From assembly GCA_947497945.1 (NCBI GenBank), contig CANMIP010000008.1, positions 62,001-126,000 of the forward strand: a DNA stretch of 64,000 bases. The letters are read 5' to 3'. Each line of letters starts with the position of its first letter. Within the stretch, counting starts at the first letter, position 1. The DNA is from an uncultured Tropicimonas sp. Lineage in GTDB: Bacteria; Pseudomonadota; Alphaproteobacteria; Rhodobacterales; Rhodobacteraceae. The notes under the pieces are model-generated. The model searched no databases. It worked only from the letters and a program-made list of their open reading frames with translations, and was not told the DNA's origin. A program made the translations under genes and the position numbers. Shown here one piece after another: positions 17,231 through 50,768 of this stretch.

Positions 17231-18499
17231 GTGACCGTCACCTACCTGAAACAGGCCGCGCGGCGTCCGGCGGAAGAAAACACCGACATCCGCGACATTG
17301 TCCGCATCATGCTGGCCAATATCGAGCGCGATGGCGAGGCGGGTGTACGCGGCTACGCGGAAAAGCTCGACGGCTGGACCGGCGACATCGTCCTCGCCGA
17401 GGCCGACCGCCGCGCGGCCTGCGACCGGGTCCCGGAGGCGCTGAAGGCGGATATCCGCTTCGCCCATGACAATATCCGCCGCTTCGCCGAGGCGCAGATG
17501 GCGACGATCCAGGACTGCGAGATCGAGGTGATCCCGGGGCTGATCGCCGGGCAGAAGCAGATCCCGGTCTCCAGTGCCGGCTGCTACGTGCCGGGCGGGC
17601 GCTACAGCCACATCGCCAGCGCGCTGATGACCATCACCACCGCGAAGGTCGCGGGCGTGCCGCATATCACCGCCGTCTCCCCGCCCCGCCCGGGCGGCAT
17701 CCCCGACGCGATCCTCTACGCGATGGATCTGAGCGGCGCGGATCTGATTCTCAATCTCGGCGGCGTGCAGGGAATTGCCGCCATGGCGCAGGGGCTCTTC
17801 GGCGCGCAGCCGGCCGACATCCTCGTCGGCCCCGGCAATGCCTATGTCGCCGAGGCCAAGCGCATGCTTTTCGGCCCCGTGGGCATCGACATGTTCGCCG
17901 GGCCGACGGATTCGCTCGTCATCGCCGATCACACCGCATCGGTCGAAACCGTCGCCTGGGATCTTGTCAGCCAGGCCGAGCATGGCGCCGACAGCCCGGT
18001 CTGGCTGGTCGCCACCGACCGCGCCGTCGCCGAAGGGGTCATGGCGCGCGCCGATGCGCTGATCGCCAGCCTGCCGGAGCCCAACACAACCGCCGCCCGT
18101 GTCGCCTGGGTCGAGCGGGCCGAAATCATCCTCTGCGACACGCGCGAGGAAGCTGTCGCCGTCTCCGACCGCTACGCGCCCGAGCATCTCCAGGTGCAGG
18201 CCGAGGATCTCGACTGGTGGCTGGACACTCTCTCCGCCTATGGCTCGCTCTTTCTCGGCAAGGAGACGACGGTCCCCTTCGGCGACAAGAGTTCGGGGCC
18301 GAACCACGTGCTGCCAACCGGCGGCGCGGCGCGCTACACCGGCGGGCTGTCAGTGCACAAGTTCACCAAGACCGTGACCTGGCAGCGCTGCAATGAAGCC
18401 GCCTCGCGCGAGCTGGCCGAACGGACGGCGCGGATCAGCCGTATGGAGGGTATGGAGGGCCATGCGCGCGCCGCCGAGCTGCGCCTGAAGCGCGACTGA
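17231..18499 (+). CDS. Histidinol-dehydrogenase-family zinc-dependent alcohol dehydrogenase
   Basis: 422-residue HisD-family NAD-dependent dehydrogenase. The start is taken at GTG 17231 (VTVTYLKQAARRP); the upstream part of the open frame overlaps the preceding gene. Zinc and catalytic signatures are present: SQAEHG (Gln and His ligands), APEHLQV (catalytic Glu-His), FGDKSSGPNHVLPTGG (Asp ligand) and LSVHKF (His ligand). Its place behind a DMGDH-like enzyme, away from other his genes, argues for a catabolic paralogue rather than histidine biosynthesis. Such paralogues include HpsN, the sulfopropanediol dehydrogenase of roseobacters, but no hpsO, hpsP or sulfolactate genes are here, so I leave it unnamed. 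Confidence 0.85.
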   Translation: MTVTYLKQAARRPAEENTDIRDIVRIMLANIERDGEAGVRGYAEKLDGWTGDIVLAEADRRAACDRVPEALKADIRFAHDNIRRFAEAQMATIQDCEIEVIPGLIAGQKQIPVSSAGCYVPGGRYSHIASALMTITTAKVAGVPHITAVSPPRPGGIPDAILYAMDLSGADLILNLGGVQGIAAMAQGLFGAQPADILVGPGNAYVAEAKRMLFGPVGIDMFAGPTDSLVIADHTASVETVAWDLVSQAEHGADSPVWLVATDRAVAEGVMARADALIASLPEPNTTAARVAWVERAEIILCDTREEAVAVSDRYAPEHLQVQAEDLDWWLDTLSAYGSLFLGKETTVPFGDKSSGPNHVLPTGGAARYTGGLSVHKFTKTVTWQRCNEAASRELAERTARISRMEGMEGHARAAELRLKRD

Positions 18500-18947
18500 T
18501 CCGGACAACGCCAAGCATTGTGGACGGAGCGGGACAACGGATTTCGGCACCTCTCGCGGCGAAAGAAAACGTGCAACAACAGCCATGCCTGTGCCTGCCC
18601 GTGGGGAGGCGCTGCAACGCCTGTTCGAAACACTTTATGGGGCCACGTTCTGCGACATGAATGGTTTGCGCTGTCGGTGAAGACGCGCCAGCCCGCCGGA
18701 ACGGGCAGGCGCTGGCACGGCGGCCTTCGGCCTTGTTCCGTGCCCTTCAGTGCTCTGCCCGAAAACGCCACCGGCCCAGTTCAGTTCTTCGCGGGAACGG
18801 GAAAGGACGACGGCCCAGTGATTAAAATCGCCATGCGTGGATCCCCGGCTTCGGCACGCAGGATCGCCCCTTGCCCTGCCCGCCGCGACCCCGCTGCACT
18901 TGCCAGCCCGTGCTCGAGATCTTAGCTCTTGAGGAGGAGGTCAGGCC
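18500..18947. other. Intergenic region containing dispersed repeat copy A
   Basis: About 450 bp between the HisD-like gene and the ABC exporter operon. The first half is repeat copy A (18526-18750), and the remainder shows no gene. The exporter promoter should lie in 18751-18930. Confidence 0.5.
18526..18750 (+). repeat. Dispersed 3'-UTR repeat, copy A (two terminal hairpins)
   Basis: About 225 bp, homologous to segments at 31200-31421 and, reversed, 49490-49715. It begins 27 bp after the HisD-like stop codon, in the same orientation as that gene. Hairpin 1 pairs GCGCCAGCCCG (18685-18695) with CGGGCAGGCGC (18702-18712) around the loop CCGGAA. Hairpin 2 pairs GGCACGG (18714-18720) with CCGTGCC (18738-18744) and encloses a GGCC/TTC/GGCC stem-loop. 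No protein is convincing in it. Confidence 0.8.
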
Positions 18948-19676
18948 ATGCCCGGAAAGACCGACACGTCGCCAAGGCTCGCCTTTCAGACCGAGGGGCT
19001 GACGAAGACCTATGGCGAGGGCGAAGCGGCCGTCCACGCCCTGCGCGGCGTCGACCTGAGCCTGCCCGATGGCGAGCTGGTCGTGCTGCTCGGCGCCTCC
19101 GGCTCGGGAAAGTCGACCCTGCTGAACATCCTCGGCGGGCTGGACCGCGCCACCTCCGGCAGCGCCCGCTTTCGCGACCACGAGCTGACCACCCATTCCG
19201 ACCGTGCCCTGACCCGCTATCGGCGCGACCATGTTGGCTTCGTTTTCCAGTTCTACAACCTCATGCCGGCGCTGACCGCGGAGGAAAATGTCGAGCTGGT
19301 CACCGAGATCGCCCGCAACCCGATGTCTCCCGCCGAGGCGCTCGATCTCGTCGGGCTCGGGCCCCGGCGGCACCATTTCCCCGCCCAGCTCTCGGGCGGC
19401 GAGCAGCAGCGCGTCGCCATCGCCCGCGCCATCGCCAAGCGCCCGGACGTGCTCTTCTGCGACGAGCCCACCGGCGCGCTGGACAGCACCACCGGCCGCG
19501 CCGTCCTGCAAGTCATCGCCGATATCAACGAAGAGCTCGGCACCACCGTTCTCATGGTGACCCATGCCGCCCATACCGCCGCCATGGCGCATCGCGTGTT
19601 GCGCTTCTCCGACGGCGCCATCCACGCCGTGGAAGTCAACGCGACCCGCCTTGCACCAAGGGAGATAGACTGGTGA
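18948..19676 (+). CDS. ABC transporter ATP-binding protein (LolD/MacB type)
   Basis: 242-residue ATPase that energises the FtsX-type permease encoded next. Walker A is GASGSGKST (about residue 49), the signature is [15 protein letters not shown], and Walker B is [12 protein letters not shown]. The TGALDS form of the motif after Walker B is typical of the MacB/LolD group. The RBS GAGGAGGAGG lies upstream of ATG 18948. It is the first gene of an operon encoding ATPase, permease and periplasmic adaptor, the layout of MacAB/DevBCA-like export machines. Confidence 0.92.
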
Positions 19677-30808: not shown

Positions 30809-31192
30809 ATGGAACTTCTCGCCGAAATCCTCGTATCCTTCCTGCTCGTTGTCGCCGGGCTGTTCGGGCTTCTGGGCAGCTTCGGGCTGATCAAGCTCGA
30901 CGACACGATGCGACGGCTGCACGCGCCGACCAAGGCCACGACGCTCGGGGTCGGCGGGGTGCTGATCGCCTCGATGATCTATTTCGCGGTCTTTCTCGAC
31001 CGGATCTCCTATCACGAGCTGCTGATCACCGCCTTCCTCTTCATCACCGCGCCGATCACGGCAAATTTCGTCGCGAAGGCGCATATGCATCGCGACGTGA
31101 AGGAGCGCGACCTGCCGGGAACCGGCGGCACCTATGGCTGGGCGGGCTATGACGAGGTTGGCGACGAAGAGCAGCCGATCGACACGAAATAG
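30809..31192 (+). CDS. mrpG: Mrp antiporter subunit G
   Basis: 127-residue last subunit, three membrane segments. Has the MrpG pattern FGLLGSFGLIKLDDTMRRLH (residues 22-41), THGAPTKA-like LHAPTKATTLGVGG, and an acidic C-terminal tail. It is preceded by a GGAG RBS. Dispersed repeat copy B begins 8 bp after its stop and probably forms the 3' end of the mrp transcript. Confidence 0.93.
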   Translation: MELLAEILVSFLLVVAGLFGLLGSFGLIKLDDTMRRLHAPTKATTLGVGGVLIASMIYFAVFLDRISYHELLITAFLFITAPITANFVAKAHMHRDVKERDLPGTGGTYGWAGYDEVGDEEQPIDTK

Positions 31193-31199
31193 GCAGCCA

Positions 31200-31421
31200 C
31201 GCAGCGGACAGAGCAGTCCTTCGCTGCAGTTGGAAGACGCACCGACGTAAGCCCTGCCCGCGCCGGACCGTGGGCTGGTGCCGCAACAGTTGTGGTCTGC
31301 ATTTGATCCCTGCCAAGTCCGAAATCGTTCAATCCGTTGCGCGAGGATGCAGAAGCGCCAGACCGCCGGGACGGTCCGGCGCGGGCACGGCGGCCTTCGG
31401 CCTTGATTCTGTGCCCCTCAG
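31200..31421 (+). repeat. Dispersed 3'-UTR repeat, copy B (closes the mrp operon)
   Basis: About 220 bp, homologous to copies A and C and in the same orientation as mrpG. Hairpin 1 pairs GCGCCAGACCG (31355-31365) with CGGTCCGGCGC (31372-31382). Relative to copy A one C-G pair has become A-T, a compensatory change. Hairpin 2 pairs GGGCACGG (31383-31390) with CTGTGCCC (31409-31416). The remaining bases up to 31611 hold no recognised gene. Confidence 0.8.
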
Positions 31422-31611
31422 CGCGCAAACTCAATGATTGCGAAAGTCTCAGTTTAGCCAAATCCGCTCTTCGGCAGCCGTCTTCACAGCGCGGCGGCTG
31501 TTGACAGACTGCCGGATTCGCGGGACAGCAGCGGCGGTCACAGATCAGACCGACCGGTCCCGGGATGCCACCCCGTTTCCGCGCACCCGCCTGGCCCGGA
31601 AAGGGACCCCC

Positions 31612-49325: not shown

Positions 49326-49489
49326 GTCACTGCCTCCGTCGCCGAGCGCTGCCGCCCGGGCATGCCGCCGGGCTCGGGGCGCAGTCAAGCACAGAGCGCG
49401 GACGGGTGCACTACGATATTGCGCGCGAGGGAGCGAGTTGAGGGAGGGATGAACAGAGCCGGTGGCGGACGTTGGGCCGATGCGCTGGT

Positions 49490-49715
49490 TGGCACGGAAC
49501 CAAGGCGAAGCCGCCGTGCCAGCGCCTGCCCGTCCCGGCGGGCTGGCGCTTTTTTTTTCCGCGCGCAACGCTCAGATCTCCTTCGGATCTGGCCGGGATA
49601 AAGTGCAGACCTCAGTCGTTGTGGCGCCATCCCACGGGCAGGCGCTGGCACGGCTCCCGTTACTTCACTTGGCCAACGCTGCGAAGCTCCGTTTTCTCCA
49701 CTGTCCCGCCCTTGC
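49490..49715 (-). repeat. Dispersed 3'-UTR repeat, copy C (reverse orientation)
   Basis: About 225 bp, the reverse complement of the family seen at 18526 and 31200. It starts about 10 bp after the stop of the minus-strand binding-protein gene, again oriented with the gene it follows. Plus-strand hairpin arms are GCGCCTGCCCG (49522-49532) with CGGGCTGGCGC (49539-49549), and GGCACGG (49491-49497) with CCGTGCC (49514-49520). The inner stem is shortened to GGC/GCC, still paired. On the transcript strand a nine-A run precedes hairpin 1. The 160 bp between the repeat and the ThDP-enzyme start (49326-49489) show no gene. Confidence 0.8.
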
Positions 49716-49724
49716 CCAACGCGC

Positions 49725-50768
49725 CTAACGCGTCAGCGCATCGAGCCAGGCATCGACGAAACCCTGCCGCTTGAGCGCGTCGAGATAGACCAGGAGCCCC
49801 GGCCCGATGCGGATCGGGCGCAGCGAGGGCATCGCGGCGACCGCCTCTGAATCAAGGGTGGGAAACGGGTAATAGGGCGGCGTGCTGCCGCTCCAGGCGG
49901 TCGACAGAAGGAAGTCGACAAAGGCAGCGCCCAGCTCCGGCGAGTCCGACGCCGATGGTAAAAGCGCCAGCCGCAGCATGACGGTGGTGAAATCCTCCGG
50001 CGCGATGATCTCGATCGCCTCACCCGCCTGCTGGCGCGGCAGCGCGTAGCTTCCGAGCACGTTATAGGCAATGGCCAGCCGTCCCTCCGAGACATCCGTG
50101 ATCATCTCGCCCGAGCAGCAATAGAGCCGCGTGCCCAGCCCTCCCATCACCTCCATCAGCCGCCAATAGGTCTCCGAGGTGCGCGCATCCTGCGTCGCAA
50201 AAAGATAGCCGGCACCACTGGTGCGGATGTCATAGGTGCCGACCCGGCCGCGAAACCGCTCCGGATGCGCGCGCAGCAGCGTGATCAGCGCCTGCCGGGT
50301 GCGCGGAAGCTCCAGCCCCTCGAAGGCCGCCGGCGAGATCACGACGGTCGCCGGCTCCTGGGTGAAGGCGAAGACCTGGTCGCGCCAGTTGGCCCAGTCC
50401 GGCAGCCGCTCGGTCGCTTCCGAGACATGCCGCCGCGCCATGCCGTCATTGGCAAGCTTGGTCTGCAGGTCCATCGCCGAGGAGAGCGCCACGTCGAACG
50501 CCTCGCGTTCCTCGGTCAGCGCCCGCATCACCTCGGTGCTGCCGGCGACGGTGTAATCGATGGTCGTCTCCGGGAAACGGCGTTGGAATTCCAGCAACAT
50601 CGGCTCGAAGATCTCGATGTCGGTGGTCGACAGGATCCGCAGGACCGGCCCGCCGGGCGCGGCCTCGAAGACCCGGTGGGCTTCGATCTCGAAGGCGCCG
50701 GCCCGCCCCGAAAACCCGGCAAGCGCCGCCAGCAAGGTCACGATACGGGCAAGATGAGCGATACGCAT
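49725..50768 (-). CDS. Periplasmic extracellular solute-binding protein linked to TctDE-type kinase
   Basis: 347-residue periplasmic protein. The start MRIAHLARIVTLLAALAGFS at 50768 follows GGAGG and gives a signal peptide cut near GRAGA. It resembles ABC-type Fe3+/spermidine-like binding proteins (VLRILSTTDIEIFEPMLLEF, then TVAGSTEVMRAL). The gene overlaps the histidine kinase gene by 31 bp and no transport genes are present. The simplest reading is a periplasmic sensor partner that presents a ligand to the kinase. An unusual CC pair (LYCCSG) lies near residue 215. Ligand unknown. Confidence 0.85.
   Translation of the reverse strand: MRIAHLARIVTLLAALAGFSGRAGAFEIEAHRVFEAAPGGPVLRILSTTDIEIFEPMLLEFQRRFPETTIDYTVAGSTEVMRALTEEREAFDVALSSAMDLQTKLANDGMARRHVSEATERLPDWANWRDQVFAFTQEPATVVISPAAFEGLELPRTRQALITLLRAHPERFRGRVGTYDIRTSGAGYLFATQDARTSETYWRLMEVMGGLGTRLYCCSGEMITDVSEGRLAIAYNVLGSYALPRQQAGEAIEIIAPEDFTTVMLRLALLPSASDSPELGAAFVDFLLSTAWSGSTPPYYPFPTLDSEAVAAMPSLRPIRIGPGLLVYLDALKRQGFVDAWLDALTR

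Follow-up and report, generated by a model that had tools for sequence, protein, structure and literature searches.

What is the structured segment that lies directly behind the stop codon of a histidinol dehydrogenase-family gene in this 64,000-nucleotide stretch of DNA (the window), and does it work as RNA or spread as DNA? A preliminary description had recognized three homologous segments, each oriented with the gene in front of it and ending in two adjacent hairpins, and had left the choice between a mobile 3′-UTR element, a 3′-end-derived small RNA (sRNA) and an unusual terminator. The phenomenon is real, and it is larger than that description stated. We consider it probable that the segment belongs, as one copy among many, to a MITE/REP-like mobile intergenic DNA repeat of the Rhodobacteraceae that is non-autonomous. 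The repeat is of the same general kind as the REP, ERIC, CIR and MITE elements and Rhodobacteraceae-wide, and no title or abstract beginning found in our literature searches names it; an excerpt of a Ruegeria sRNA paper (PMC4809877) likewise holds nothing on such repeats.

The three segments (copies A, B and C; Table 1) can be aligned along their full length, with the invariant columns clustered in the arms, and each is matched by a covariance model built from 30 copies of the host genome assembly (5.79 Mb), which bears out their homology. Copies A, B and C are exactly the strong matches of this model in the window; the remaining six rows at E ≤ 1 comprise three weak reverse-strand shadows of the copies and three rows at E values of 0.07 to 0.93. 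The pattern of the first hairpin, H1, is matched by all three copies and that of the left arm by copies A and C, each with 0 matches in 100 shuffles; chance similarity is ruled out by these shuffles and by the 71 distinct copies in the host genome. The remaining particulars given for the three segments also held: measured from the stop codons at 18499, 31192 and 49725, the distances to their starts are 27, 8 and 10 nt (8-27 bp had been stated), the naming of the upstream genes as HisD-like, mrpG and periplasmic binding protein agrees with the Pfam assignments, and two 3′ hairpins are present in each copy. As a full unit, copy B starts 12 nt past the mrpG stop codon. Copy A is a diverged copy, and its minimum-energy structure, folded as a single sequence, does not use H1 alone. 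In copy C, a run of nine A (49550-49558; T on the plus strand) stands immediately before H1, and the opposite strand would there read a terminator-like hairpin plus a T-run.

Table 1. Copies of the repeat in the window, their parts and the genes upstream of them (CM, covariance model)
Feature	Coordinates	Strand	Basis
Copy A, full-length repeat	18520..18777	+	CM match, 144.4 bits; ends by eye against family ends, letters checked
Copy A, core	18575-18748	+	CM match
Copy A, left arm	18582..18613	+	Long-range fold: pairs with H1 and the start of H2
Copy A, hairpin H1	18685..18712	+	H1 pattern; covariation of the local fold
Copy A, hairpin H2	18714..18744	+	Fold and covariation; no U-tract behind it
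Copy B, full-length repeat	31204..31450	+	CM match, 183 bits; sharp ends against three related copies
Copy B, core	31244-31419	+	CM match
Copy C, full-length repeat	49456..49701	-	CM match, 193.4 bits; ends by eye, letters checked
Copy C, core	49487-49661	-	CM match; downstream of the solute-binding protein gene
Histidinol dehydrogenase-family gene upstream of copy A	17231..18499	+	Pfam PF00815 Histidinol_dh; start from our own gene finder
Gene upstream of copy B, mrpG, MrpG/MnhG antiporter subunit	30809..31192	+	Pfam PF03334 PhaG_MnhG
Extracellular solute-binding protein gene upstream of copy C	49725..50768	-	Pfam PF13531/PF01547

The full unit in the host genome is about 245 bp long, and the core common to different genera about 175 nt. 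Four close copies, including copy B, can be aligned from GCGGAC to about CTC, over about 245 bp, between unrelated flanks; over the core, identity is 92.6-96.0% in the six pairwise comparisons. By eye, the full unit starts GCGGAC and the core AGCCG, and the subterminal inverted ends are of the AGCGGAC type; the end motif AGCGGACNTTCGCTGC, allowing up to 2 mismatches, has 63 matches in the genome, some of them outside copies, and its reversed control 25. The left arm of each copy (AGCCGxGCxAGCGCCxGCCCGTGGGxTGGCGC), whose relation to the hairpins the preliminary description had missed, reads for the most part as the reverse complement of the hairpins, namely of H1 and the start of the second hairpin, H2. 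The unit is a near-palindrome, in which either the left arm pairs with H1 and the start of H2 or H1 and H2 fold locally.

Both alternative folds carry compensatory changes. In the long-range fold, 94.8% of cells are paired across 80 copies, with 135 double-changed cells vs 40 in shuffles, and in the local H1 and H2 fold 98.6% are paired, with 69 double-changed cells vs 21.6; the long paired arms are inverted repeats near the ends of the kind by which a MITE is recognized. When pairs with double changes are counted, the shuffles equal the real data in either fold because few pairs vary. In a 153-copy alignment, columns 15, 148 and 171 and columns 18, 145 and 174 co-vary in threes, so the same positions serve both folds. 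Is the structured molecule RNA or DNA? G-U mispairs are moderately commoner than A-C mispairs both in the long-range stem (3.2% and 1.2%, respectively) and in H2 (3.2% and 1.5%) but rarer in H1 (0.5% and 4.0%, mostly due to one unpaired column), and RNA rather than DNA as the structured molecule is therefore not demonstrated. Single-copy folding energies are weakly below those of shuffles (z -0.4 to -1.9), so the claim of structure rests on covariation. Loci from the pattern search had to match exact letters within H1 and H2, so invariance there is partly imposed; the left arm and the N positions inside the pattern were free to vary.

Variants of the repeat are also present in the host genome. 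A class of about 80 nt without the middle of the element (L355-L358 and L360; C15:45739, C47:718, C7:144047, C1:260503 and C7:158375) consists of further copies and looks like the outcome of deletion between two similar GCGCC(A/T)GCCCG stretches. In two places (L362 and L364; C2:227855 and C8:136409), the middle is replaced by a common different insert in which GCGCCATTGG is repeated, and at a third (L368; C4:211178), two other palindromes are apparently nested inside an element copy.

How large is the family? In the host genome, where 150 candidates were scored, 124 rows reach E ≤ 0.01, part of them reverse-strand shadows of the near-palindrome, and the best 71 rows are distinct copies (E ≤ 2.3e-13). 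Across genomes of the same GTDB genus, the rows at E ≤ 0.001 number 119 (host, shadows included), 31, 21, 7, 5, 1, 1, 0 and 0, and copies per genome within this one genus range from 0 to more than 70. In the same-family sample, 127 of 295 genomes, which is 127 of 294 genera, match at E ≤ 1e-5; of 385 genomes sampled across the class, with 7 candidates scored in each, the two that match at E ≤ 1e-4 belong to the same family, and those from other families gave no match. The family-wide and class-wide copy numbers are lower bounds, and weak relatives were possibly missed, because few candidates were scored in these searches (9 and 7 per genome, respectively) and the filters were stricter. The covariance-model search that had been proposed as a check has thus returned many copies, in the host genome and beyond it. 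Among the matches listed from the pattern search, at least 110 loci are named, and one falls outside the Rhodobacteraceae in the wide sense, names being judged by recognition. This exception (L304, 5936-6110) is a record labelled Nocardioides marinus DP1N28-1 that carries the element, probably through contamination by a Rhodobacteraceae strain.

Other identities were considered and set aside. Six plasmid records hold matches, the best of which lie under no annotated feature of an incomplete gene table, and one IMG/VR contig holds a copy; a phage element was tried, and a query with one family copy found 0 matches in 50,697 phage records. Rfam reports two tRNAs only in the window at gathering scores and, at E ≤ 1 in six loci, a single weak match distant from the element, which rules out a known Rfam family, an outcome that had been named beforehand as a possible refutation. 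A coding sequence was rejected since gaps of 1-3 bases are strewn over the 30-copy alignment; we judge from these gaps that a reading frame is not kept.

To describe the placement of the copies, genes were called with our own gene finder, trained on the window only, and 12 copies less than 300 nt from a locus end were dropped together with place-repeating loci; of the 229 copies that remain, 20 of 158 outside the host genome and 1 of 71 within it are unclassified. No predicted gene is overlapped by 213 of the 229, and the other 16 overlap one by 1-13 nt. Most copies lie at gene 3′ ends, so that placement without regard to gene ends, which had likewise been named as a possible refutation, is not what is observed. 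The 70 classified copies of the host genome divide into 33 between convergent genes, 22 sense and 10 antisense between codirectional genes, and 5 between divergent genes; the corresponding numbers for the 138 classified copies outside it are 71, 26, 33 and 8. Convergent placement is enriched (104 of 208 classified copies vs 10 of 50 baseline spacers; Fisher p = 1e-4) and divergent placement depleted (13 of 208 vs 20 of 50; Fisher p = 1.5e-8), relative to a small baseline that was drawn from the window and 13 loci and comprises spacers no shorter than 200 nt, element-bearing ones included. Orientation in codirectional spacers is random outside the host genome (p = 0.44) and leans towards sense within it (p = 0.05); the rule that a copy is oriented with its upstream gene therefore holds for copies A, B and C and does not generalize to the family.

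Some gene ends recur. The same orthologous ends, named by eye, are occupied in different genera, behind carB (L230, L244, L278 and L297), trpA (L174 and L249) and parE (L194 and L279), in either orientation for carB and trpA, which suggests recurrent slots. At another locus (L170), a copy is adjoined by three paralogues that look by eye like peptide deformylases and belong to a single family.

Comparison of orthologous loci reveals gain and loss. For example, one junction of two codirectional genes is occupied in Salipiger bermudensis HTCC2601, which has gained 251 bp there between the two halves of a 14-bp direct repeat that occurs nowhere else in the 8-kb locus; in S. bermudensis DP6N14-6 and S. 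abyssi the junction is empty and the genes nearly abut, and in two Alloyangia pacifica strains it is occupied in opposite orientations. A second slot is occupied in both A. pacifica strains and empty in S. bermudensis HTCC2601 and AmN7-7. Between A. pacifica KcN7-14 and DSM 26894, we compared 9 of the 16 KcN7-14 copies (11 from the regions examined and 5 from pattern-search loci): 5 slots hold a copy in the same orientation, 3 in the opposite orientation, and in 1 it is absent. The five same-orientation slots are 94.8% alike, 91% with the 3′ end lost, 80% and, in two cases, decayed. In the three opposite-orientation slots, the bodies, where measured, are 69-75% alike or partly alignable and the flanks 90-93%; such slots could result either from replacement or from differential loss out of older arrays. 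Another genome of the genus (G004) carries tandem arrays with units of 227-232 bp, in which several units stand in a row as in BIMEs. Some copies lie near contig ends (L151, L153 and L157 in G004; C44 and C10 of G002), as if arrays broke the assemblies.

Not everything favours mobility. Flanking direct repeats of at least 9 are found at 2 of 71 host copies, no excess over a control of mismatched pairs (2.75%), and systematic target duplications were accordingly not found in this genome; the family set has 16 of 143 vs a 2.8% control, several of the longest coming from the G004 tandem arrays. The host copies are mostly old: for the 45 best, median pairwise identity is 78.7%, and a single pair of 990 exceeds 95%. 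The Y1 transposase family PF01797 is absent from the three genomes with most copies in the genus (the host, G004 and G007) and present in 3 of the genus's 9 genomes, where the repeat model finds 0, 5 and 1 matches; given its absence from the host genome, RAYT/IS200 mobilization was rejected. A recurrent neighbouring transposase was also sought, and no transposase family was recognized by eye among the 25 largest families from 1258 predicted neighbouring proteins or in a further listing of neighbours. The sharp ends, the range from 0 to more than 70 copies within a genus, the empty sites, the 14-bp duplication and the opposite-orientation slots nevertheless make the repeat look like mobile DNA.

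Could the repeat instead be an RNA-level 3′-UTR element, that is, a transcribed terminator, a 3′ mRNA stabilizer or a 3′-end sRNA whose two folds form a switch? The compensatory changes in both folds, the placement at 3′ ends, the lean towards sense in the host genome (22 vs 10) and the G-U excess in the long-range stem and H2 all speak for such an RNA, and a functional RNA would also account for positions, paired and in part unpaired, that are conserved between genera. An antisense terminator is possible too: on the strand opposite to the element, 18 of the 45 best copies have at least 6 T in the 12 nt that border the left arm on its outer side (a count without a control), and the conserved AAA before H1 would read as a hairpin plus UUU in antisense. 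Random orientation outside the host genome (26 sense vs 33 antisense) and an H2 without a U-tract nevertheless argue against an oriented 3′-UTR RNA, 3 of the 9 compared slots differ in orientation between strains, H1 has fewer G-U than A-C mispairs (mostly because of one unpaired column), and Rfam offers no match. A sense-strand terminator role appears unlikely from the letters, as the hairpin plus U-tract of an intrinsic terminator is found in 0 of the 45 best copies (at least 6 T in the 12 nt after H2) and a scan of 18400-18950, the copy A region, returns 0 terminator-like hairpins. One slot has, by eye, its own terminator-like hairpin and T-run preceding the element, and one holds the element in either orientation between codirectional genes that nearly abut in relatives, which counts against sRNA and terminator. 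We therefore regard an RNA-level element as unlikely. What survives of the original proposal is a mobile element at gene 3′ ends, based on the many copies, the intergenic placement, the orthologous empty sites and the lack of an Rfam family, and what finds no support, given the orientation, the missing T-rich tails and the terminator-like hairpin of that one slot, is the 3′-end sRNA or terminator.

Quite improbable to our minds is a role for the DNA itself: the repeat might be a chromosome-organization or methylation site, a dispersed structure bound by nucleoid protein or gyrase or used via GANTC (CcrM) in H2, which selection would retain where genes converge. GANTC is found at one place in H2 in 31 of 71 host copies and 52 of 147 family copies, in a window where it is depleted (78 vs 203 expected by base composition), and convergent placement of half of the classified copies and random orientation outside the host genome would suit such a site; more than half of the copies, however, lack GANTC at that place, 2 of the 9 genomes of the genus have no match, and slots are gained and lost. 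A relic or fragment of an ordinary insertion sequence, with its full-length form in the genome, would explain why the ends are sharp, with inverted repeats close to them, and why one insertion has a 14-bp duplication, yet it strikes us as highly improbable: all but two of the 124 host rows span the whole model, the same core recurs in 127 of 295 genomes, the neighbour families examined by eye include no recognized transposase, and the best plasmid matches fall under no annotated feature (in the incomplete gene table).

How does the mobile repeat compare with known systems? The CIR elements of Caulobacter were reportedly described by Chen and Shapiro in 2003 as multi-copy long inverted repeats with a CcrM site central in one repeat. 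The repeat here is likewise alphaproteobacterial and intergenic, and its GANTC in H2 resembles the CIR CcrM site; it differs from CIR as described in that GANTC occurs in only 31 of 71 copies and in that no sampled genome from another family of the class is matched by the model. CIR elements are strictly intergenic according to an excerpt of PMC10969869, in which MITEs and ERIC-like repeats are non-coding, inverted-repeat, intergenic and variable in copy number. Our repeat shares these properties and has one target duplication, but it differs from elements so described in that no parental insertion sequence was recognized among the neighbour families and no systematic target duplication in the host genome, and in having long-range and local hairpins that compete. 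REP/BIME sequences, as an excerpt of PMC2817692 presents them, are extragenic palindromes in many copies, with composite or tandem arrays and compensatory stem changes, all of which have counterparts here; the REPs of the same excerpt, however, are tied to RAYT, and each is a short palindrome headed by GT(A/G)G, whereas the present unit is 175-245 bp long, starts AGCCG or GCGGAC, and occurs without PF01797 in the host, G004 and G007. RIME, too, the Rhizobium-specific intergenic mosaic elements that appear in the reference list of PMC2873474, invite comparison. Like the repeat here, RIME are palindromic intergenic repeats of Alphaproteobacteria; the likeness is one of description, and the host order differs.

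How might a mobile repeat of this type come to look like a 3′-UTR? What the data show are the family with its anatomy and placement, the empty sites, one 14-bp duplication and the turnover of copies; hairpin-based mobilization, and purifying selection as the cause of the placement, are inferred. Probably a hairpin or cruciform is extruded from the near-palindrome, or else its single strand folds, and a putative trans-acting recombinase would then act on the structure. Copies may insert in intergenic DNA, form local tandem arrays, decay by internal deletion and be replaced. Insertions would persist where they are least harmful, behind stop codons, between convergent genes and away from promoters, and purifying selection of this kind would produce the apparent 3′-UTR placement.

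A bolder version of this reading is that the family is a mobile hairpin element, family-wide, without any known Y1/RAYT transposase, in which one motif, present three times (left-arm start, H2a and H2b), co-varies so as to keep two exclusive folds, and conserved gene-end slots repeatedly swap one copy for another either way. We put this forward tentatively, as a doubtful but possible proposal; if true, it would imply a new hairpin-recognizing mobilization or a slot-exchange mechanism, and a mobilizer other than RAYT would be a new route of palindrome spread. For the Rhodobacteraceae, a structured repeat in 127 of 294 sampled genera would alter the annotation of intergenic regions and the reading of 3′-UTR 'sRNA' candidates and of assembly breaks at repeats. 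The turnover of its copies can be measured directly in pairs of strains, for instance in the two genomes of Alloyangia pacifica.
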